64,000 nt of DNA from Tsukamurella conjunctivitidis (lineage in GTDB: Bacteria; Actinomycetota; Actinomycetes; Mycobacteriales; Mycobacteriaceae), in NCBI RefSeq assembly GCF_007858475.1, contig NZ_VIGX01000007.1, positions 62,001 through 126,000 on the forward strand, in the 5' to 3' direction. Of the stretch, positions 5,798-40,750 are shown piece by piece. Both the position numbers and the translations under genes were made by a program. Position 1 is the first letter of the stretch, and each line of letters begins with the position of its first letter. Under the pieces are notes generated by a model. It was not told the origin of the DNA. It saw nothing but the letters and a program-made list of their open reading frames with translations, and did no database searches.

Positions 5798-6907
5798 ATG
5801 AGTGAATCGGACACCTTCGCCGAGCAGGCGCGCCCGGCGTCCTCGCAACGCACCCCGGACGAGGTGCGCGCCCGGCTCCAGGAGTGGTTCGCCGCGCGCG
5901 AGCCGGGGGCGGAGGTGTCGGATCTGCACCTGCCCGAGGGCAACGGCATGTCGAGCGAGACGCTGCTGGCCACGGTCCGGACGGATGGGGAGGAGCGGCG
6001 GCTGGTGATCCGCGTCGCGCCCCGCCCGGAGTCGGACCCGGTATTCCCCAGCTATGACCTGTTCGCCCAGTTCGCGGTCATGCGGCACGTCGCGGCGCAC
6101 GGCGTCCCGGCCCCGGCGTGCCTGTGGGTGGAGGAGGACCCCGCCGTCATCGGCGCGCCCTTCCTCGTCATGGACCGCGTCGACGGCGAGGTGCCGCCCG
6201 ACGTGATGCCGTACACCTTCGGCGCGTGGCGGCCCGACTCCACCGACGCCGATCTGCGGCAACTCGCGGACGCCTCGGTCGACGTGATCGCGACGATCCA
6301 CGCGGTGCCGCCGCCCGCCGACGGCCTGGTCCCCGTGCCCGAGGCGGGGGAGACCGCGCTCGCGGCGCACCTGCGGCGCCTTCGCGCCTTCTACGACTGG
6401 GCCGCCGAGGGGCACCGCCGGGCGCCGATCCTCGATCGCGCCCTGGCCTGGGCGGCCGAGCAGCTGCCCGGCCACGCCGACGCCGTGCTCAACTGGGGCG
6501 ACGCCCGCATCGGCAACCTCATGTACCGCGGGAACGTACCCGTCGCGGTGCTCGACTGGGAGATGGCCACCGTCGGCCCGTGCGAGCTGGACCTCGGCTG
6601 GTTCGTCTACCTGCACCGCTTCTTCCAGGACCTCGCCGAGCTCGCGGGCCTGCCCGGACTCCCGGGCTTCCTCCGCCGCCAGGACGTGGAACGACGGTAC
6701 GCCGAACGCACCGGGCACATCCCGCGCGAGATGGACTTCTACACCGCGTACGCCGCGATCGTGCACGGCGTGATCATGTACCGGATCCAGACCCGTGCCA
6801 TCGACTTCGGGGCGTCCGCAGCGCCCGAGGACCCCGACGACATGATCCTGCACCGCGCGAGCATCGAGAAGATGCTCGACGGGACGTACTGGGAGGCCGT
6901 GCCGTGA
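5798..6907 (+). CDS. APH-family phosphotransferase (FadE36/ACAD10 N-terminal type)
   Basis: 369 residues with the aminoglycoside phosphotransferase fold. A Brenner-type catalytic loop NWGDARIGNL is followed by the Mg-binding strand LDWEMATVGP. Family members in lipid-degrading actinobacteria, often annotated FadE36, resemble the kinase half of human ACAD10, which phosphorylates hydroxyacyl-CoA. A hydroxyacyl or similar lipid substrate is therefore likelier than an antibiotic. It is translationally coupled (GTGA) to the next gene. A KstR-consensus site and a leaderless -10 box precede it, which supports a role in lipid or steroid breakdown by inference. Confidence 0.8.
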   Translation: MSESDTFAEQARPASSQRTPDEVRARLQEWFAAREPGAEVSDLHLPEGNGMSSETLLATVRTDGEERRLVIRVAPRPESDPVFPSYDLFAQFAVMRHVAAHGVPAPACLWVEEDPAVIGAPFLVMDRVDGEVPPDVMPYTFGAWRPDSTDADLRQLADASVDVIATIHAVPPPADGLVPVPEAGETALAAHLRRLRAFYDWAAEGHRRAPILDRALAWAAEQLPGHADAVLNWGDARIGNLMYRGNVPVAVLDWEMATVGPCELDLGWFVYLHRFFQDLAELAGLPGLPGFLRRQDVERRYAERTGHIPREMDFYTAYAAIVHGVIMYRIQTRAIDFGASAAPEDPDDMILHRASIEKMLDGTYWEAVP

Positions 6908-8064
6908 CGCGGTGGCCCGGCTCCCCGCCGCGTACCTGGAGCGGCTCGCCGCTCTCGCCGGCGGACGACCTGCCGATCCACCAGGTCGCCGAGGTGATCC
7001 GTCACCCCGCCACCTCGGACCGGAACTTCTACGACCGCTACTACTTCAACGCGCACAACGGGAACAGCGACGAGCCCTTCCTGGTACTCGGCCTCGGCGT
7101 CTATCCGAACCTCGGGGTGATCGACTGCTTCGCGGTCGCGCGCCACGGCGACGAACAGGTCGTCTTCCGCGCCTCGAAAGCGCTCGGCGCGGACCGGTCG
7201 GACACCGTCGTCGGGCCACTGCGCCTCGAGGTGCTCGACGGCCTTCGCCGGCTGCGCGTAGTCCTCGCGCCCGGACCCGACTACGACCTCGCCTTCGATC
7301 TGACCTTCACCGCGACCGGCCCGGCGCACCTCGAGCCGCGGCACTTCCACCGGCAGCTCGAGCGCGTCACCTTCGACACCCAGCGGTTCGTCCAGGTCGG
7401 CTCCTGGGCGGGCGAGCTCACCGTCGACGGTGAACGGTTCGACGCGAGCACCTGGCGCGGTAACCGCGACCGGTCCTGGGGTGTGCGGCCCGTCGGCGAG
7501 GCGGAACCGCCCGGCCGCCGCGTCACCGAGGCCGGCAACTTCTTCTGGATCTACTCCGTGCTCCGCCTTTCGGAGGCCACGATCTGCGTGGTTCTCCAGG
7601 AGGACATCCGGGGGCGACCGGTCGTCGAGGACGCCACCTGGATCCCGCACGACGGTTCCGAGCCCCGCTGGCTCGGGCACGTCGCGCACGACGTCGACTT
7701 CATCCCGGGGACCCGGCAGGCCCGGGCCGCCCGGCTCGCGTTCACCGGATCCGACGGTGCCCGGACCGATGTCGACCTCCGCATCCTCACCGCGAACCAC
7801 TTCGGCTTCGGCACCGGCTACGGGCTCGACCAGGACTGGCGGCACGGCATGTGGCAGGGCGAGGAGAAGATTGAGGGCCGCCGGTTCCGGGTGTCCGAAT
7901 TGGACGTCAACCTCACGATGTTGGTCCCCGTCGAGTACCTGGCGGCCTGCACCGTCCGGCACCCCGACGGGCGTACCGAGGAGGGAGAGGGCCTGTTCGA
8001 GTTCGGCGCGATCGGCCCGCACACGCGCTACGGGTTCCAGCACTACGTGGATCCCGCGCCGTAG
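6904..8064 (+). CDS. Conserved protein, lipocalin/CrtC-AttH-like fold suspected
   Basis: 386 residues, beginning at GTG overlapping the previous stop by 4 nt. The sequence is rich in Trp, aromatic residues and beta strands, with blocks such as WRGNRDRSWGVRP and GQEDIRGRP-like turns. This layout resembles two tandem lipocalin-like domains, as in AttH and hydroxyneurosporene hydratase (CrtC) relatives. I cannot assign a reaction. Tight coupling to the phosphotransferase implies a shared pathway. Its TAG stop forms part of the -10-like box of the next gene. No signal peptide is visible, so it is probably cytoplasmic. Confidence 0.65.
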   Translation: MTRWPGSPPRTWSGSPLSPADDLPIHQVAEVIRHPATSDRNFYDRYYFNAHNGNSDEPFLVLGLGVYPNLGVIDCFAVARHGDEQVVFRASKALGADRSDTVVGPLRLEVLDGLRRLRVVLAPGPDYDLAFDLTFTATGPAHLEPRHFHRQLERVTFDTQRFVQVGSWAGELTVDGERFDASTWRGNRDRSWGVRPVGEAEPPGRRVTEAGNFFWIYSVLRLSEATICVVLQEDIRGRPVVEDATWIPHDGSEPRWLGHVAHDVDFIPGTRQARAARLAFTGSDGARTDVDLRILTANHFGFGTGYGLDQDWRHGMWQGEEKIEGRRFRVSELDVNLTMLVPVEYLAACTVRHPDGRTEEGEGLFEFGAIGPHTRYGFQHYVDPAP

Positions 8065-8075
8065 AATTCTCCGCC

Positions 8076-8897
8076 GTGGCGGACAGGTACGGAGACATCT
8101 ACGCGGGGCATGCGAGCAAGAAGGCGCGCGTGATCCCCGAGGTGCCGGCGGATCGCGACCTCGTCGTCGAGGACGCGGCCACCGGCTTCTGCGGTGCCGT
8201 CGTGGGGTTCGACAAGAGCTACGACGGCGACTTCGTCAAGCTCGAGGACGGTCGCGGCGTCGTCCGGGTCTTCGCGATGCGCAAGGCCGCCTTCCTCATC
8301 GACGGCGAGCCGGTCACCCTGGTGAAGCCGCGGCCGAAGGCGCCGTCGGCGCCGCAGCGCAGTGCGTCGGGTTCGACCCGGGTGGAGGGCGTGAAGGCCC
8401 GTGTCGCGCTGCCGAGCCGGATCTGGGTGGAGGGCATCCACGACGCCGCGCTGGTGGAGCGCGTGTGGGGCCACGACCTGCGGGTGGAGGGCGTCGTCGT
8501 CGAGCAACTGGAGGGCCTGGACCACCTCGGCGCCCGCCTCGCGGAGTTCCAGCCCGGTCCCGGCCGGAAGGTCGGCGTGCTCGCCGACCACCTCGTGGAG
8601 GGCTCGAAGGAATCCCGGATGACGCAGTCCCTCGGGAAGTACGTGATGGTGACCGGTCACCCCTTCATCGACATCTGGGCGGCCGTGAAGCCCGCGTCGG
8701 TGGGCATCGCGGCGTGGCCGGACGTCCCCGGCGGCGAGGACTGGAAGACCGGGACGTGCGCGCGCCTGGGCTGGGGTACCCCGCAGGACGGCTGGCGCCG
8801 CGTCCAGAACGCTGTGACATCGTTCCGCGATCTCGACGCCTCACTCATCGGCGCGGTCGAGCGCCTCGTCGACTTCGTCACCGAACCCGATTCCTGA
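8076..8897 (+). CDS. DUF3097 family protein
   Basis: 273 residues, starting MADRYGDIYAGH and containing the conserved blocks RIWVEGIHDAALVERVWG and DHLVEGSKESRM that mark DUF3097, an actinobacterial family of unknown role. Wording such as VEGIHDAALVE recalls the TOPRIM-like core of DNA primase and recombination proteins, but I cannot verify that. The GTG start lies 8 nt after TAGAAT at 8062-8067, a leaderless-type promoter, so it is probably transcribed independently although only 11 bp follow the previous stop. Confidence 0.8.
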   Translation: MADRYGDIYAGHASKKARVIPEVPADRDLVVEDAATGFCGAVVGFDKSYDGDFVKLEDGRGVVRVFAMRKAAFLIDGEPVTLVKPRPKAPSAPQRSASGSTRVEGVKARVALPSRIWVEGIHDAALVERVWGHDLRVEGVVVEQLEGLDHLGARLAEFQPGPGRKVGVLADHLVEGSKESRMTQSLGKYVMVTGHPFIDIWAAVKPASVGIAAWPDVPGGEDWKTGTCARLGWGTPQDGWRRVQNAVTSFRDLDASLIGAVERLVDFVTEPDS

Positions 8898-8933
8898 CCC
8901 TGTTCCGGGCCGCGGCGGGGATAGAATCCGCTG

Positions 8934-9581
8934 GTGGCATCGACCCCGACGACGAAACCCGACACCCGGCAGCAGATCCTGCGCGCGGCACTCGACTGGG
9001 TCGACGAGGCGGGCCTGACGCGGATCTCGATGGGCGCGCTCGCCAAGCGGGCACGCCTGGCGCGGGCCACGCTCTACCAACACTTCACCGGCAAGGACGC
9101 GCTGGTCGAGGCCGTGGTGTCCAGCGAGCTGGAGAAGTTCTACAGCCGGATCCACGACTACGCCGACCCGATCGAGGACAACGACGAGCGCCTCGCCGCC
9201 GGCTTCGCCTTCGCGTACGCCTACCTGCGGGAACATCGCGCTCTCCAGCGGATCCTGGCGCTGAATCCGGCGCTCATCCTGCCCTACGTCCACGGCGATT
9301 CCCCACAGATCAAGGAGGGGCGGCGCTTCTTCCTCAAGGAGATCCGCCGCGGCGAGTACCGCGACGACGCCGATGTGGACGCGCTGGCGGACTTCTTCGT
9401 CCGGCAGCTGCACTCGCTGCTGCTGACCCCGCTGCCACCCGTCGAGGGCGCCGTCGACGAGCCGGATCACCGCGGTCCCAGCGCCGCGAACGTGGAGGCC
9501 GGCCGACGGTACGCCGAGACCTTCGTGATCCCCGCCCGCGCGCAGTTCGTCAAGCAGGACCCGCCGGGATCCGCGCGCTGA
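8934..9581 (+). CDS. TetR-family transcriptional regulator
   Basis: 215 residues. The N-terminal helix-turn-helix is clear: QILRAALDWVDEAGLTRISM, then LAKRARLARATLYQHFTGKD, the standard TetR recognition region. The C-terminal ligand domain is not assignable to a subfamily. The GTG start follows TAGAAT (8922-8927) by 6 nt, again a leaderless arrangement. Its 3' end overlaps the converging SGNH hydrolase gene by 32 bp. I see no palindrome directly upstream, so its target is not obvious; the genes on either side are candidates. Confidence 0.88.
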   Translation: MASTPTTKPDTRQQILRAALDWVDEAGLTRISMGALAKRARLARATLYQHFTGKDALVEAVVSSELEKFYSRIHDYADPIEDNDERLAAGFAFAYAYLREHRALQRILALNPALILPYVHGDSPQIKEGRRFFLKEIRRGEYRDDADVDALADFFVRQLHSLLLTPLPPVEGAVDEPDHRGPSAANVEAGRRYAETFVIPARAQFVKQDPPGSAR

Positions 9582-34300: not shown

Positions 34301-34768
34301 ATGTCGGCACTGGTGATCTGCGCGTCCTCGCACCACGGCAACACCCGGAAGGTGGCCGATCGGATCGGCGGGGTCCTCGGGGCGCCGGTGGTGGCGCCGA
34401 CGGAGGTGACAGCCGAGCAGATCGACGCCGCCGACCTGGTCGGATTCGGATCGGGCGTGTACTGGATGTCCTTCGATCCGGACCTGCTCCGCCTGGTCCG
34501 CGGCCTCGCAGCGAAGCCGCGCGGCACCGCCTTCGTGTACGCGACGAGCGGGCTGCCGGAGACGCCGCTGCGCCGCTACACGCGGAACCTCGCCGATCTG
34601 CTCACGGATGCGGGATTCCAGCTCGCGCCGGAGGTATTCCTGTGTCGCGGGCTCGACACCATGGGCCCGTTCGGTCTGGTCGGCGGCCTGAACAAGGGGC
34701 GTCCGAGCGCGGCGGACCTCACGGAGGCCGAGGCCTTCGCGCGCCGACTGGGGGCGCAACGCCCTTAA
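34301..34768 (+). CDS. Flavodoxin-like protein
   Basis: 155 residues. The N-terminal phosphate loop ASSHHGNTRKVAD resembles the FMN-binding loop of flavodoxins, with the other flavin loops near GSGVYWMSF and TSGLPETPL. It is likely an FMN electron carrier or a menaquinone-dependent oxidoreductase-like protein. It is separated from meaB by 38 bp and may be its own unit. No reductase partner is adjacent. Function otherwise unknown. Confidence 0.75.
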   Translation: MSALVICASSHHGNTRKVADRIGGVLGAPVVAPTEVTAEQIDAADLVGFGSGVYWMSFDPDLLRLVRGLAAKPRGTAFVYATSGLPETPLRRYTRNLADLLTDAGFQLAPEVFLCRGLDTMGPFGLVGGLNKGRPSAADLTEAEAFARRLGAQRP

Positions 34769-34791: not shown

Positions 34792-34820
34792 TTGTGAAGC
34801 CCGTCACACCGGCCTACTGT
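34792..34820 (+). promoter_or_regulatory. Promoter of the ThDP/SRPBCC/KAS III operon
   Basis: TTGTGA (34792-34797) and TACTGT (34815-34820) are 17 bp apart. The second box ends 7 nt before GTG at 34828, so a leaderless transcript is likely, and this start is preferred to the GTG at 34819 that lies inside the box. Confidence 0.5.
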
Positions 34821-34827
34821 GTGGTTT

Positions 34828-36474
34828 GTGCCTTCAAAGGTCGCGGACCGCATTGCAAATGCTTTGTATGCGTATGGTTTTCGCCACGCATACGGTATCC
34901 ACGGTGCCAACTCCGAGGATCTGTTCGCGGCGCTGTTGCGGCGGCCCGCGCACCGTCGGACGGCGGTGACGATCGCCAAGCACGAGTTCGGCGCGGGGGC
35001 GATGGCCGACGGGGCCACCCGGATGACCGGGCGGCCCGCCTGCCTCATCGCGACCTCGGGCGGCGCGGCCATGAACTGCGTCCCCGCACTCGCCGAGGCC
35101 CACCAGTCGCGGGTGCCGATCCTGGCGCTGATCGGCAGTCCGCCGACCGGGGCCGAGGGACGCGGCGCCTTCCAGGACATGTGCGCCCCGCCGCGCACCG
35201 TGGACCTCCTCGGCGTGCTGCGCGGCGTCACGGGCTTCGCGGCGAAGGTCTCCGGGCCCGAGGACCTGCGCCCCGCGCTCGACGGGGCGCTCGACTGCCT
35301 CGAGCGGGGCCTGCCCGCGGCGCTGCTGCTGCCCAAGGACGTGCAGGTCGCCGAATGCCCCGCGCTGCCGGCCCGTACGCCCGTCCGGCAGCCCGCGCCG
35401 GCGCCGTCGGACGAGGTGATCCGCACTCTCCGGGCCTCCCGCCGGCCTCTGATCCTGCTCGGTGAAGCCGCGTCACGAGCGCGCCTGGCCGGCCCGGTGG
35501 CGGATCTCGCCGCCGCGACCGGAGCGGTGATCGCCGTGGGCCCCAACGGTCGCGACGCCGCGCCTCCGCGCGGGGTCGTCGGCGTCGCCGGGGTGATGGG
35601 GCACCCGTCGGTGGTGCGCGCGGCCGCCGAGGCCGACCTCATCCTGGCGCTGGGCACCGAACTCGACCTCATGGACCGCACCGGCCTGGACGCGACGATC
35701 GACGTCACGTGCACGGTGCATGTGGGTGCGGAACCGCCCCTGCGCGAGGTGACCGCGCACGAGCCCGTGCGGGACCTTGCCGCGTACACCCGGGCGCTCG
35801 CCACGGAAGCCGGCCCCTGCCGGCGGAAGCCGTGGACCCGGGCCGCGCCCGAGCCGATCGTCGTGCCCCGGAGCGGCTCCGGGGTGATGACCTGTGCGGA
35901 CGCGGTGGATGCGCTGGCCGGCGTGATCCCGCGCGACGCGCTGGTCTTCGCGGATGCCGGCAACGCCGGGGCGGCTGCGGTGCACCGGCTCCCCATCGGC
36001 ACGGGCGAGCGCTTCCTGGTCGCTCTCGGCATGGGCGGAATGGGGCACGGGATCGCGGCCGGGATCGGAGCCGCGATCGCCACCGGGCGCCCGACCGTGA
36101 TCCTGGCCGGCGACGGCGCCTTCTTCATGCACGGTATGGAGATCCACACCGCGATCGAGGCTCGCGCACCGGTCCTGCTCGTGGTGCTCAACAACGACGC
36201 GCACGGCATGTGCGTGGTCCGCGAGGGCCGGTTCTTCCCCGACCTGCCCAGCATCAACCGCTTCCGGCCCAGCACGATCGCGGAGGGCCTGGACGCCATG
36301 TTCCCGACGCTGCCCGTCCGCTCCGCCGCCACGCCCGACGGTGCGCGCTCCGCCGCCGCCGAACTGCTGGCCCGCTCGTCCGGCGGACCGTCGTGCCTGG
36401 AGATCGGTACCGACCCCGCGGAGATACCCCCGTTCGCAGCGCTGCTGCCCGACACCGCGAAGGAGCATTCATGA
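34828..36474 (+). CDS. Thiamine diphosphate-dependent enzyme (acetolactate synthase/decarboxylase superfamily)
   Basis: 548 residues. It has the catalytic Glu53 (KHEFGAGAMADG), a middle domain, and the ThDP/Mg motif GDG...NN at 428-456 (AGDGAFFMHG to LNNDAHGM). The fold is that of acetohydroxyacid synthase, benzoylformate decarboxylase and acyloin-forming enzymes; I cannot tell which keto acid is used. It is the first gene of a three-gene operon and is coupled to the next through ATGA with AAGGAG before it. A role in making a small secondary product is inferred from its partners. Confidence 0.85.
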   Translation: MPSKVADRIANALYAYGFRHAYGIHGANSEDLFAALLRRPAHRRTAVTIAKHEFGAGAMADGATRMTGRPACLIATSGGAAMNCVPALAEAHQSRVPILALIGSPPTGAEGRGAFQDMCAPPRTVDLLGVLRGVTGFAAKVSGPEDLRPALDGALDCLERGLPAALLLPKDVQVAECPALPARTPVRQPAPAPSDEVIRTLRASRRPLILLGEAASRARLAGPVADLAAATGAVIAVGPNGRDAAPPRGVVGVAGVMGHPSVVRAAAEADLILALGTELDLMDRTGLDATIDVTCTVHVGAEPPLREVTAHEPVRDLAAYTRALATEAGPCRRKPWTRAAPEPIVVPRSGSGVMTCADAVDALAGVIPRDALVFADAGNAGAAAVHRLPIGTGERFLVALGMGGMGHGIAAGIGAAIATGRPTVILAGDGAFFMHGMEIHTAIEARAPVLLVVLNNDAHGMCVVREGRFFPDLPSINRFRPSTIAEGLDAMFPTLPVRSAATPDGARSAAAELLARSSGGPSCLEIGTDPAEIPPFAALLPDTAKEHS

Positions 36475-37103
36475 TCCCGGCGATCGACATCGAGGGAACC
36501 ATCCGTATCGAGAGCCACCCCCGCCCGGTGGCGCAGCCGATCCTCGTGGACCGCATGCGGTCGGTGTACCCGCACGAGCAGATCTACGGCGACTTCTGTC
36601 CCGTGCAGTCCTACGTGAATGCACCGCCCGACGAGCTCTACGACTGGCTCTCCGACACCCGCTCCTTGGAGGAATGGACCTACAGCCTGCGCGGTTTCCG
36701 CGAGACCGAAGAGCCGGGGCTCTGGGTGGCTCGCGACATGCTGGGCGCCGACACCGAGATCTACACGCGCACCGTCGCGCATCCCGATGCCCGCACCGTC
36801 GATTACCACTGCGCCTGGGACCAGGGCAAGCACCTCTGGATGATCTACCTCATGCGGATCGTCGATGCGCAGACGGTGCTGAACCGACCCGGATCGGTAG
36901 TGCTGTGGGTCAACTGCCACCACCCGTTCTACGACGAGAACCCGTACCCCGAGACGGCGCCGCCCGACCGTCCCGTGTGGGTCGGCGACCTGTGGGACAC
37001 CTTCGGCGCCGGCCACCAGATGGAGCTCGAGAACCTCAAAGCCATCGCGGAGCACCGGCACGCGCACGGCGAACCGGTCCGGCCCGAATGGATGGACCGG
37101 TGA
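36471..37103 (+). CDS. SRPBCC-type protein
   Basis: 210 residues. The pattern VNAPPDELYDWLSDTRSLEE near residue 45, followed by curved strands and a long C-terminal helix (MELENLKAIAEHRHAHG), suggests the START/Bet v1-like SRPBCC fold used by polyketide cyclases and lipid-binding proteins. Several Trp, Tyr and His residues would line the cavity. It sits between and is translationally coupled to the ThDP enzyme and the KAS III-like enzyme, so it may cyclise, carry or hydrolyse their product (inference). Confidence 0.65.
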   Translation: MIPAIDIEGTIRIESHPRPVAQPILVDRMRSVYPHEQIYGDFCPVQSYVNAPPDELYDWLSDTRSLEEWTYSLRGFRETEEPGLWVARDMLGADTEIYTRTVAHPDARTVDYHCAWDQGKHLWMIYLMRIVDAQTVLNRPGSVVLWVNCHHPFYDENPYPETAPPDRPVWVGDLWDTFGAGHQMELENLKAIAEHRHAHGEPVRPEWMDR

Positions 37104-38110
37104 ACCCCCGGATCGTCGGGCTCGCGTCGTACCTGCCCGAGAACCGCGTCTCCGCCGACTACTTCCGCGAGTACGCCGATGCCGACAGCCGCACGCTCAC
37201 CTCGAACCCGATGTTCGCGCCCCCCGCGTATCGGCACCACGCCGCGGCGGGGGAGTCCAACGTCGACCTGATGTGCGCGGCGATCGACCGGCTGCGGGCG
37301 CAGGTGGGCGACGAGGCCCTGCAAGCCGACGTCGTCCTCAGCCACTCCCAGCTGCCGGACCTGCCCGTCGTGGGCTGCGGCGGCGACGTCGTGCGCCGCC
37401 TCGGCACCCGGCCCTCGCTGGTCCTCGACATCCACAACGGCGGCTGCGCCGCCTTCCTGCTCATGCTGCACCTCGCGCGCACCATGTTCACCGCGGGCAC
37501 CGCTCGGTCGGCGCTGCTGCTCACCGCCACCAACGCCGCCGGGAACGTCTTCACCCAGGAGCGGGTCCGGAACCTGCCCCAGGCGGCCATCCCGGGCGAC
37601 GGTGCCGCGGCGGCCCTCGTGGTCGCCGACCCGCAGGCCGGGGGCCTGGAGGTCCGCGAGGTCGTGTGCGCGCAGCACAGCGAGTACGCGGGCGACATGA
37701 CCGCGGCGGTCGATCCGCCGCGCAAGTACTGGGAGGCCGGGGAGGGGCAGCTGCACGTCGGCTTCACCGAGGCCAAGATCGCGAAGGTCCTCGCCCGCGG
37801 CAACCGGTTGGTACCGGAGGTCGCCCTCGCGGCCGCGGCGGCGGGCGGGCTGCGCGGACCCGACGTCGGTCATCTCGTCACCAACCAGCCGAATCGCACC
37901 TTCCTGCGGAACTGGCGCGAGGCGCTGGAACTCCCGCCCGAGCGGCATCCCGACACCTTCGACGAGTGCGGCAACCTGTTCGCCGTCGGCGTCCCGCACA
38001 CCTTCGCCACCGCCCGCGCGGACGGCCGGATCGAGGCAGGGGAGGACGTGGTGCTCGCGGCCTTCGCGCACGCCGGGGACTTCGCCGCGGGCGCGCTGAT
38101 CCGCACCTAG
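37100..38110 (+). CDS. KAS III (FabH)-like enzyme with His-to-Asn change
   Basis: 336 residues, the thiolase fold. The nucleophile Cys116 (HNGGCAAF) is present. The FabH motif PHQAN is replaced by TNQPN, putting Asn262 where the catalytic His belongs; the third residue Asn292 (CGNLFAVG) is kept. Without that His, decarboxylative condensation should be impaired, and simple acyl transfer (as in KAS III-like acyltransferases) is more likely. The GTG overlaps the SRPBCC stop. The gene ends in a 4 bp convergent overlap with the esterase gene. Confidence 0.85.
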   Translation: MNPRIVGLASYLPENRVSADYFREYADADSRTLTSNPMFAPPAYRHHAAAGESNVDLMCAAIDRLRAQVGDEALQADVVLSHSQLPDLPVVGCGGDVVRRLGTRPSLVLDIHNGGCAAFLLMLHLARTMFTAGTARSALLLTATNAAGNVFTQERVRNLPQAAIPGDGAAAALVVADPQAGGLEVREVVCAQHSEYAGDMTAAVDPPRKYWEAGEGQLHVGFTEAKIAKVLARGNRLVPEVALAAAAAGGLRGPDVGHLVTNQPNRTFLRNWREALELPPERHPDTFDECGNLFAVGVPHTFATARADGRIEAGEDVVLAAFAHAGDFAAGALIRT

Positions 38111-39351
38111 CCCGGCAGGCCCAGGCGGCCGCCGAGCCAGTCGAGTTCCGCCGTCAGCCCGCCCGACCACACCGCGAAGTCGTGCCCGCCCCGGATCCAG
38201 CGGGTGCGCACGGTCATCCCGGCCCCTGCCGCAGCGACGGCGACCCGCTTCGCGGCCGCGGTCGACGCGGCGTCGTCGGTACCGGCGACGAGCACGCCCG
38301 CGCTGTCGGGGAACCGGCGCAGCGACAGCTGCGTGATCGGATCCGCCCGCGCGTACGCGCCCCGATCGCCGGCGAAGGCGTCCCGGATCGTCTCCTCGCG
38401 TCCGCCGCCCAGGTCCGGCTCGGCGTCGGGCGACAGAGCCAGGAAGGTGCGGAAGACCTCGGGGAAGCGGGTGGCGAGTTGCAGCGCGCACGTGCCTCCG
38501 TAGGAGTAGCCGCCCACGGCCCAGGCCCGCGGCATGGGATCGACCGACAGATTCTGTCGCACCCACGCGGGGACGTCCTCGGCGAGATAGGTCGCGGCGC
38601 GCTTGCTCCGGCTGTCGGCGCACAGCGGGTTCTCGAACTGGCCGCCCGTGGCGTCGGGCACCACCACGACCGGGGCGACCCCGCCCCGACGGGCCGCGTA
38701 GGTGTCCATGGTCCGCGCGAGCTTCCCGCCCGAGAACCAGTCCCGCGGCGAGCCCGGCTGGCCGGGCAACAGCATGAGGACCGGCAGGCGCTCACGGGCG
38801 CCGGACAGGTACGCGGGCGGGAGGTAGATCAGTGCCTGCCGAGCGGCGAACCGCGAGCGGGCCGGCGGCACCGTCGCCCGGACCACGACACCGCGCACGG
38901 CCTCGGTCCCCGGGTCGGGGCGCGGCACCGTCGCCGGATAGTCGACGGGCAGCAGATCCTCGACCGACGGATACGCCGCGTAGAGCGAATTGACCTGCCC
39001 CGCACCCATCAGCGCGACCACGGCGACCGCCGTGGCACTGAGCCCCGCGGACCGCCACGACGGGGACCGGACCACGCGCACGCCCGCGAGCAGCACCGCG
39101 AGGACCGCGAGGCCGATCCACAGGAGCACCAGGGGATCGAGCCGATCGGGGAAAGGCCTCCAGACGAACTCGACGAGGAAGTCGACGAGCGCCGTCGTCG
39201 TCAGGGCGGCGCCGATGCAGGCGAGCACGGTCCGGGTGGATCCGCTGCGGCGCGTCGCGCTGATCAACCCGGCCAGGGCCGCCGCCCCGGCCAGCAGGAG
39301 CAGGAGCGGCACCGGACCCGCCGTGAGCTGCAGATTCCGCAGCGGGTTCAC
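38107..39351 (-). CDS. Membrane-anchored esterase (Ag85/esterase-D-like)
   Basis: 414 residues. Four N-terminal membrane helices (about 8-120) precede an extracytoplasmic alpha/beta hydrolase domain with nucleophile GYSYGG, an acidic residue around GTDDAAST and the catalytic His in GGHDFAVW. This resembles the mycolyltransferase/esterase group of mycolata. The GTG at 39351 is chosen because GGAGGG precedes it and the protein then begins with the first helix; the longer frame crosses the trpB2 promoter. It may act on cell-envelope lipids (inference). Confidence 0.8.
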   Translation of the reverse strand: MNPLRNLQLTAGPVPLLLLLAGAAALAGLISATRRSGSTRTVLACIGAALTTTALVDFLVEFVWRPFPDRLDPLVLLWIGLAVLAVLLAGVRVVRSPSWRSAGLSATAVAVVALMGAGQVNSLYAAYPSVEDLLPVDYPATVPRPDPGTEAVRGVVVRATVPPARSRFAARQALIYLPPAYLSGARERLPVLMLLPGQPGSPRDWFSGGKLARTMDTYAARRGGVAPVVVVPDATGGQFENPLCADSRSKRAATYLAEDVPAWVRQNLSVDPMPRAWAVGGYSYGGTCALQLATRFPEVFRTFLALSPDAEPDLGGGREETIRDAFAGDRGAYARADPITQLSLRRFPDSAGVLVAGTDDAASTAAAKRVAVAAAGAGMTVRTRWIRGGHDFAVWSGGLTAELDWLGGRLGLPG

Positions 39352-39438
39352 CGTCCGGCCCTCCGTCCTCGCACGTCGCCCAGGATAGGTGGCGACCGTA
39401 AGACGGACCTGTGGGAAAGTCGCCGAAACCGGGCGATC

Positions 39439-39444
39439 TACGCT
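39439..39444 (+). promoter_or_regulatory. Leaderless-type -10 box for trpB2
   Basis: TACGCT fits TAnnnT and ends 7 nt before ATG at 39452; no Shine-Dalgarno sequence precedes the ATG. Confidence 0.45.
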
Positions 39445-39451
39445 GTGAGCC

Positions 39452-40750
39452 ATGACACTCTCGGACGCCGCGGCGCACCAGGACATCACGACCGTCGAGG
39501 TTCCCACGCACTGGTACAACCTGGCCGCGGAACTGGAGACGCCCATCCCGCCGCACCTGCATCCCGGCACCAAGGAGCCCGTGCAGCCCGAGGACCTCGC
39601 GCCCCTCTTCGCGTCGGGTCTGATCGCTCAGGAGGCGTCGACCGAGGCCTACCACGAGATCCCCGAGCCGGTCCGCGAGATCCTGTCGATGTGGCGGCCC
39701 TCGCCCCTGATCCGGGCGCGGAAGTTCGAGGAGGCGCTCGGCACCTCGTGCCGGATCTACGTCAAGTACGAGGGCGTCAGCCCCGTCGGCTCGCACAAGA
39801 CGAACTCGGCCGTCGCGCAGGCCTACTACAACGCCGTCGACGGCGTGACGAAGCTGACCACCGAAACCGGCGCGGGGCAGTGGGGCAGCGCACTCTCCTT
39901 CGCCGGCGCCCAGTTCGGCATCGACGTCGAGGTGTGGCAGGTCCGCGCCTCGTACGATTCCAAGCCCTACCGCGGCCACCTGATGCGCACCTACGGTGGC
40001 ACCGTCCACCCGAGCCCGTCCGACCTCACGGAGGCGGGCCGCGCCATGCTGGCGAAGGACCCGGACACCACGGGCAGCCTCGGCATGGCCGTCTCCGAGG
40101 CCGTCGAGGTCGCGGCGCAGGACCCCGACGCCCGCTACGCCCTGGGCAGCGTGCTCAACCACGTGGTACTGCACCAGTCGGTGATCGGCCTCGAGGCCGT
40201 CGAGCAGCTGAACCTGCACGAGCAGGGCGCCGACGTGGTCTTCGGCTGCGCGGGCGGCGGCTCCAACCTCGCCGGCCTCGCCTTCCCGTTCCTGCGGGAG
40301 AAGATCCACGGCCGTCAGGACCCGCGGATCGTCGCCGCCGAGCCGAAGGCCTGCCCGTCGATCACGAAGGGCGAGTACCGCTACGACCACGGCGACGTCG
40401 CCGGCCTCACGCCGCTGCTCAAGATGCACACGCTCGGCATGGACTTCGTCCCGGACCCGATCCACGCCGGTGGCCTGCGCTACCACGGTATGTCGCCGGC
40501 GCTGAGCCACACCGTCGAGCTGGGGCTCGTCGAGGGCGTCGCGATCGAGCAGAACGACGCCTTCGCCGCGGGCGTGCTGTTCGCGCGGTCGCAGGGCATC
40601 GTGCCGGCCCCCGAGTCGACGCACGCCATCGCCGCCGCGGCGGACTACGCGCGCGAGCACTCCGATGAGGTGCTGGTCATCGGCCTCTCCGGCCACGGAC
40701 AGCTGGACCTGCCCGCCTACGCCGAGTATCTCGCGGGCGGCCTGGCCTGA
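39452..40750 (+). CDS. trpB2: TrpB2-type tryptophan synthase beta chain-like PLP enzyme
   Basis: 432 residues, longer than TrpB1. The PLP Lys is in GSHKTNS, the phosphate loop is GCAGGGSNL, and the N-terminal extension with [16 protein letters not shown] is characteristic of the TrpB2 group (TIGR01415). TrpB2 proteins make tryptophan from indole and serine without tight TrpA binding, or salvage indole. No trp gene adjoins it, which fits an indole-salvage or serine-related role. It has its own leaderless promoter. Confidence 0.88.

Follow-up and report, generated by a model that had tools for sequence, protein, structure and literature searches.

Carbazole biosynthesis and the Tsukamurella locus

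The carbazole cores of carquinostatin and neocarazostatin are each made by three clustered enzymes (CqsB1-B2-B3 and NzsJ-NzsI-NzsH, respectively). Following a review (PMC7466098), an aminotransferase turns tryptophan into indole-3-pyruvate, with which the thiamine diphosphate (ThDP)-dependent CqsB3/NzsH couples pyruvate. The ketoacyl synthase (KAS) III-like CqsB1/NzsJ performs a decarboxylative condensation with a 3-hydroxybutyryl unit on the acyl carrier protein (ACP), where CqsB1 accepts the coenzyme A (CoA) form too, and CqsB2/NzsI, i.e., the carbazole synthase in the case of carquinostatin, closes ring A. Within the ThDP-dependent step, indole-3-pyruvate is the donor and pyruvate the acceptor (PMC9822442). 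Here, we compare this system with an operon for a ThDP enzyme, an SRPBCC protein and a KAS III-like protein from Tsukamurella conjunctivitidis, located at positions 34828-38110 of a 64,000-nt stretch of contig NZ_VIGX01000007.1 (subsequently called the window).

Lipocarbazoles have been reported from T. pseudospumae (cited in PMC7466098) and have a 1-alkyl-2-methyl-carbazole frame (PMC11350554). According to the former review, the machinery for mono-oxygenated carbazoles is yet to be identified. For Streptomyces tubbatahanensis, the chlCz cluster was assigned by its authors to chlocarbazomycin A and carbazomycin B based on genome comparison; their table lists ThDP, KAS III and SRPBCC genes, and the proposed acyl unit is acetyl (PMC10100901). 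The literature searched, outside of which most subscription papers fall, gave no gene link for lipocarbazoles or Tsukamurella carbazoles, and its titles and abstract beginnings showed no report on such cassettes in Nocardia or Mycobacterium.

Given homology, conserved residues, gene order and co-occurrence, we are fairly confident that the three genes form a carbazole-synthase cassette like NzsH/NzsI/NzsJ (CqsB3/B2/B1), though of a second type, which in Tsukamurella probably builds the lipocarbazole skeleton, i.e., a 1-alkyl-2-methyl, 3-oxygenated carbazole. The trio is equated with the described cassette because the SRPBCC protein matches CqsB2, while the ThDP and KAS proteins are the best matches within their own genome to the partners of a CqsB2-type enzyme. 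The initial annotation knew of no described pathway with these three proteins. Since the trio belongs to the described carbazole pathway of neocarazostatin and carquinostatin, the claim of an unknown pathway falls; that a characterised cluster of the same kind is on record also counts against novelty of the kind.

Both systems cluster the same three protein kinds and share the cyclase residues Tyr144, Tyr172, His206 and Glu209 (CqsB2 numbering), the Cys and Asn of the KAS as well as Glu and GDG-NN of the ThDP enzyme. In contrast, the window shows a reversed gene order, Asn for His in the KAS, Asp for Glu105 in the cyclase and no ACP domain. With regard to the lipocarbazoles, known as compounds from T. 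pseudospumae Acta 1857, both genus and species carry the trio (the type strain of T. pseudospumae at locus L032), and their 1-alkyl-2-methyl, 3-oxygenated frame fits a fatty acyl donor.

The three proteins and two types of cassette

All three genes are on the forward strand. The ThDP enzyme (548 aa) is encoded at 34828-36474 (GTG start 34828, TGA stop 36472-36474), the SRPBCC protein (210 aa) at 36471-37103 (ATG start 36471, TGA stop 37101-37103) and the KAS III-like protein (336 aa) at 37100-38110 (GTG start 37100, stop ending at 38110). Coordinates and reading frames agree with the annotated coupling by an ATGA overlap at the ThDP/SRPBCC junction and a GTGA overlap at the SRPBCC/KAS junction.

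When the SRPBCC protein is compared with all solved structures (phmmer), CqsB2 (6ipv) is matched over query residues 24-201 with an E-value of 3.7e-48, and the sole other row is a chance match (E-value 0.47). Pfam polyketide cyclases stay below threshold (16.7 vs. 27.4 bits). CqsB2 is also the top fold match of the predicted model, which is weak (predicted local distance difference test score 68.8). The CqsB2 residues Tyr144, Tyr172, His206 and Glu209 correspond to Tyr126, Tyr154, His182 and Glu185 of the window protein, while Glu105 is replaced by Asp89. A role as cyclase, already considered in the initial annotation, is thus backed by the CqsB2 match and the kept residues, and we propose from the sequence a carbazole synthase of the CqsB2/NzsI kind.

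A tblastn search with a CqsB2 fragment yielded six plasmid records, the best of which is from Embleya (locus L108, 85.8% identity). The SRPBCC protein of the Embleya cluster has a single match in the genome of the window, namely the window SRPBCC protein. Its ThDP enzyme finds the window ThDP gene as top match (232 bits; next 185), and its KAS the window KAS (110 bits; next 39). The window ThDP enzyme shows three TPP Pfam domains above cut-off, and the previously noted Glu53 and GDG/NN motif were located in its sequence (GDG 428-430, NN 455-456). It would be an indole-3-pyruvate + pyruvate carboligase of the NzsH/CqsB3 kind. Its best rows in the PDB, BbmA and CsmA, and the idea of xenocyloin-type acyloins led no further. 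Matches to the ScyA and ScyC families are far under the cut-offs.

The KAS III-like protein is above both ACP_syn_III cut-offs and has the FabH fold. Cys116, Asn292 and, at the place of the catalytic His, Asn262 are present as assigned earlier. In HMMER alignments, Asn262 pairs with a His in 3gwa, 4ryb and PqsC, such that wild-type FabH and PqsC differ from the window KAS at this position. Asn292 pairs with an Asn in 3gwa and 4ryb, while PqsC has Val there and thus lacks the Asn kept in the window. The structure matches also include a His-to-Asn mutant of OleA (6b2s). With Asn262 in place of the triad His and a score of 70.2 bits for the fabH family model (cut-off 292.1), the protein falls, judged by its sequence, outside canonical KAS III (FabH). 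We propose it to be a decarboxylative condensing enzyme of the CqsB1/NzsJ kind.

To characterise the trio's relatives, two sets of loci were compared. The first one, type I, comprises six loci (L108, L151-L155). The second one, type II, comprises 99 loci, i.e., 80 relatives (L028-L107), 15 loci from the genus of genome G242 (L156-L170), which is taken for Streptomyces, and 4 plasmid records (L109-L112). The 80 relatives are the best of 485 confirmed in a scan of named genomes and are used for all locus counts out of 80 below. Five of the six plasmid matches were opened, and 20 regions were fetched from 19 of the 36 matching genomes of the genus of G242.

KAS position 262 is His in all type I loci (6/6) and Asn in all readable type II loci (98/98; L110 is unreadable there). 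Cys116 is conserved in 105/105 loci of both types, Asn292 in 6/6 type I and 98/98 readable type II loci, and Glu53 of the ThDP enzyme in 6/6 and 91/91 (8 gaps), respectively. For the cyclase, position 105 (CqsB2 numbering) is Glu in 6/6 type I and Asp in 99/99 type II loci. Tyr144 and Tyr172 are found in 105/105 loci, His206 and Glu209 in 104/105, where the exception (L035) has a broken reading frame. Gene order is ThDP-SRPBCC-KAS in the window, whereas all six loci of type I have KAS-SRPBCC-ThDP. Identities between window and type I proteins amount to 38-41% for SRPBCC and 32-34% for the ThDP enzyme, which is also the least conserved of the trio within the family.

When three KAS III sequences (all His) serve as outgroup in FastTree, types I and II form one group each and a single change is enough to explain the distribution of Asn, with long-branch warnings to be considered. 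From these sequences, Asn262 is a fixed trait of one branch and not as damage in the genome of the window. Because the window has Asn262 and Asp89 instead of the His and Glu found in 6/6 type I loci, its cassette is not filed as type I. It is of the type we call type II, which is defined by KAS Asn262, Asp at cyclase position 105 and the order ThDP-SRPBCC-KAS. Type II is a distinct, widespread cassette in which two active-site residues have changed and become fixed, and among candidates for the genes behind the orphan lipocarbazoles it is the best.

Two criteria were discarded. An argument on chain length from the FabH Phe87 position (Val90 in the window, placed by eye) fails on the residues observed, i.e., Val (36), Ile (11) and Phe (52) in type II (n=99) and Ser (4) and Trp (2) in type I (n=6). 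A rule by which Asp105 stands for mono- and Glu105 for di-oxygenated carbazoles conflicts with the type II loci L165 and L167, which match four chlCz open reading frame (ORF) sizes, since the chlCz strain is reported with both product kinds. The matching sizes are those of KAS (341), ACP (83), flavin adenine dinucleotide (FAD) oxidoreductase (441) and short-chain dehydrogenase/reductase (308). In this comparison of sizes only, ThDP (585 vs. 591-609) and SRPBCC (199 vs. 222) mismatch as extracted, and a methyltransferase-like ORF is extra. Our analysis suggests that Asp for Glu105 alone does not settle C4 oxygenation.

Proposed route and alternatives

By analogy to the described pathway, we infer the substrates of the window operon, its long-chain donor and its product as follows. 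Tryptophan would be converted into indole-3-pyruvate via an aminotransferase encoded elsewhere, and the ThDP enzyme would couple indole-3-pyruvate with pyruvate. A fatty acyl thioester would be loaded on Cys116 of the KAS, the keto acid would decarboxylate, and the enediolate would attack the acyl carbonyl. Finally, the SRPBCC protein would close ring A, with C1 arising from the acyl carbonyl and the C1 alkyl group from the remaining chain. This mapping of the acyl carbonyl to C1 is our own and places a fatty acyl unit where 3-hydroxybutyryl is used otherwise. Fatty acyl-CoA is a plausible donor, since no ACP family match falls in the window and CqsB1 takes the CoA form. Lipocarbazoles count as 3-oxygenated, and a ring A without oxygen at C4 would require two additional electrons.

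Several observations weigh against this route. The KAS has Asn at the place of the His, and it is only 27-28% identical to the KAS of the six type I loci. In a study of OleA, the equivalent His was reportedly required for product formation, which speaks against an easy loss. A possible account is that the KAS substrate is a beta-keto acid, which loses CO2 readily, such that the reaction may need no more than Cys116 and two amides. This explanation is incomplete, since type I enzymes act on substrates of the same kind and still retain the His. In addition, no aminotransferase gene adjoins the trio in the 8/8 Tsukamurella loci among the best 80 scanned, no ACP domain was found within the window, and no reductase for a C4-unoxygenated ring was recognised in the operon. 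Furthermore, the lipocarbazoles come from strain Acta 1857, whereas the trio was observed in the type strain of T. pseudospumae.

The missing His is also the basis of the alternative put forward in the initial annotation, namely that an acyl unit is transferred rather than condensed. In a closely related form, the KAS would act as acyltransferase only, passing the acyl group of Cys116 to a hydroxyl of the ThDP product to give an acyl indole acyloin, which the SRPBCC protein binds or shapes. While Asn262 in 98/98 readable type II homologues fits such a role, Asn292 is kept just as completely, the SRPBCC protein retains the proposed ring-closing residues of CqsB2, which an ester does not need, and the described partner CqsB1 condenses (PMC7466098). 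We thus consider a pure transferase improbable. Because the described partner condenses and the KAS Cys and Asn are kept in all readable homologues, transfer seems the less likely reading by analogy, and condensation without the usual His the better guess.

Type II cassettes may alternatively use another aromatic 2-keto acid donor, e.g., phenylpyruvate, leading to a different fused ring or a phenol. The weak conservation of the ThDP enzyme, both within the family and towards type I, would be in line with this. On the other hand, the SRPBCC protein resembles an indole-specific cyclase, lipocarbazoles are known from Tsukamurella, and L165 and L167 match the four chlCz ORF sizes (despite the two mismatching genes), such that we regard another donor as unlikely. 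That the three genes are unrelated and neighbours by chance is hardly credible; nothing was found in its support, the reading frames overlap, and ThDP, SRPBCC and KAS matches share one order and strand in 80/80 loci.

If the carbazole-forming route is correct, the orphan lipocarbazoles gain a gene set, and fatty carbazoles would be an unreported lipid class across many sequenced mycolic-acid bacteria (mycolata). The type II KAS would be a natural case in which to see whether KAS III chemistry works with Asn replacing His, and the unusual Asn262 points to a large set of cassettes yet to be characterised. Furthermore, the type II cassette makes the question of the mono-oxygenated carbazole machinery testable.

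Distribution and genomic context

The conservation in mycolata expected by the initial annotation is borne out by the neighbourhood comparison, i.e., the common order and strand in 80/80 loci. By title, these are from Mycobacterium (32), Nocardia (17), Gordonia (11), Tsukamurella (8), Mycolicibacterium (6), Williamsia (1), Antrihabitans (1) and 4 differently labelled metagenome bins. In L083 and L105, the contig ends within the ThDP gene, and the ThDP match is in two pieces in L035, L064 and L101. The SRPBCC gene was found in 15/16 genomes of the window's genus (own genome counted) and in 151/401 genomes drawn from its GTDB family, covering 16/31 genera. It is rarer elsewhere: in a phylum-wide draw, the Embleya SRPBCC protein matched in 14/396 genomes, 13 of which belong to the window's family. 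Within the genus of G242, 36/392 genomes match, 5 at 71-84% identity to the Embleya protein and 31 at 42-49%.

A HisC-like aminotransferase match starts downstream, at most 500 bases from the KAS on the same strand, in 72/80 loci, the eight without it being those of Tsukamurella. We therefore regard this gene as a usual companion of type II cassettes but leave it out of their definition. Three examples score under the family cut-offs of histidinol-phosphate aminotransferases. By analogy, the gene is of the kind used for the conversion of tryptophan into indole-3-pyruvate in the described pathway. In the window's genome, the closest match to one of these aminotransferases has 38% identity and is on a different contig; Tsukamurella would therefore need a general aminotransferase encoded elsewhere.

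In 23/80 loci (Mycobacterium 18, Mycolicibacterium 3, bins 2), genes for a sigma factor and an anti-sigma factor come first, followed by the cassette plus aminotransferase and then a MarR gene. The sigma protein tested from this arrangement is above the cut-off of NF007227/PRK09645, which we take to be the SigL model. At L180, the sigma, anti-sigma and MarR genes adjoin directly, and the cassette of the same genome is on another contig. In M. tuberculosis, the MarR gene rv0737 is directly 3' of the sigL-rslA system, which is sensitive to the redox balance (PMC13002591). We read the interval between sigL-rslA and the MarR gene as a slot into or out of which the cassette moves; by analogy, the cassette may be under redox control. 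A different upstream context recurs in 13 loci (Gordonia 11, Williamsia 1, one bin), namely a histidine kinase (one was tested) along with a response-regulator-like gene.

More tentatively, and with rather more doubt than confidence, we suggest that mycolata in general, including many mycobacteria, nocardiae, gordoniae and Tsukamurella, make an unrecognised family of fatty carbazole antioxidants via a His-less condensing KAS III, where the operon of many mycobacteria is in the redox-linked sigL-rslA locus and synthesis is part of a stress response.

For the window operon, a promoter had been annotated at 34792-34820. A promoter-like pair is indeed present on the forward strand, i.e., TTGTGA (34792-34797), 17 nt and TACTGT (34815-34820), followed by 7 bases to the GTG at 34828. 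The pattern recurs, slightly varied, in 10 of 12 aligned upstream stretches (window counted), the two without it being L013 and L014. As predicted from this pair, the start of the ThDP gene is probably leaderless. Further upstream, i.e., 59 bases before the ThDP gene, a flavodoxin-domain gene is encoded on the same strand (34301-34768). It is found upstream in 6/8 Tsukamurella loci, while the remaining 72 loci gave one match; flavodoxin might supply the electrons for the cyclase step.

Downstream, a putative esterase gene on the reverse strand (38107-39573) shares a few bases with the KAS gene at its end and also overlaps the called start of a TrpB-like pyridoxal phosphate enzyme (39452-40750, forward strand). 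The latter has a PALP domain and is annotated as 'TrpB-like' in T. tyrosinosolvens. A TrpB-like gene is within 10 kb of the trio in 7/8 Tsukamurella loci, adjoining or farther away; the pathway would begin with tryptophan.

The ACP family is matched 24 times in the window's genome, each time outside the window. A profile built from eight carrier domains of this genome detected a small ACP next to the cassettes of L161, L165, L167 and L168. Further matches were within large frames of L156, L160 and L169 and a small ORF of L156 about 4.5 kb from the cassette. None was detected within the 80 loci or in the six type I loci; since the literature has an ACP in the latter, the sensitivity of the profile is unproven. 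An ACP motif scan gave one implausible ORF.

A cytochrome P450 family is present within 10 kb of the cassette in 20/80 loci, including all 11 from Gordonia (e.g., L060:12677-14014), and may provide a tailoring enzyme. The contig of L041 is titled Acidobacteriaceae bacterium and carries a Tsukamurella-like cassette; the title looks wrong. L109 (NZ_LR134449.1) is a 67.6-kb circular record named "plasmid 7" of T. tyrosinosolvens, which may be a misnamed piece of chromosome; its gene order is that of the window (mutase genes, meaB, flavodoxin, trio, hydrolase, TrpB-like gene). L016, from a genome of the window's family, has two KAS copies (6431-7366, 8532-9512) with one SRPBCC and one ThDP gene. 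Finally, the plasmid of Nocardia sp. NBC_01327 (L112) encodes aminotransferase and KAS on one strand and SRPBCC and ThDP on the other, with roadblock, DUF742 and GTP-binding genes between the two halves.

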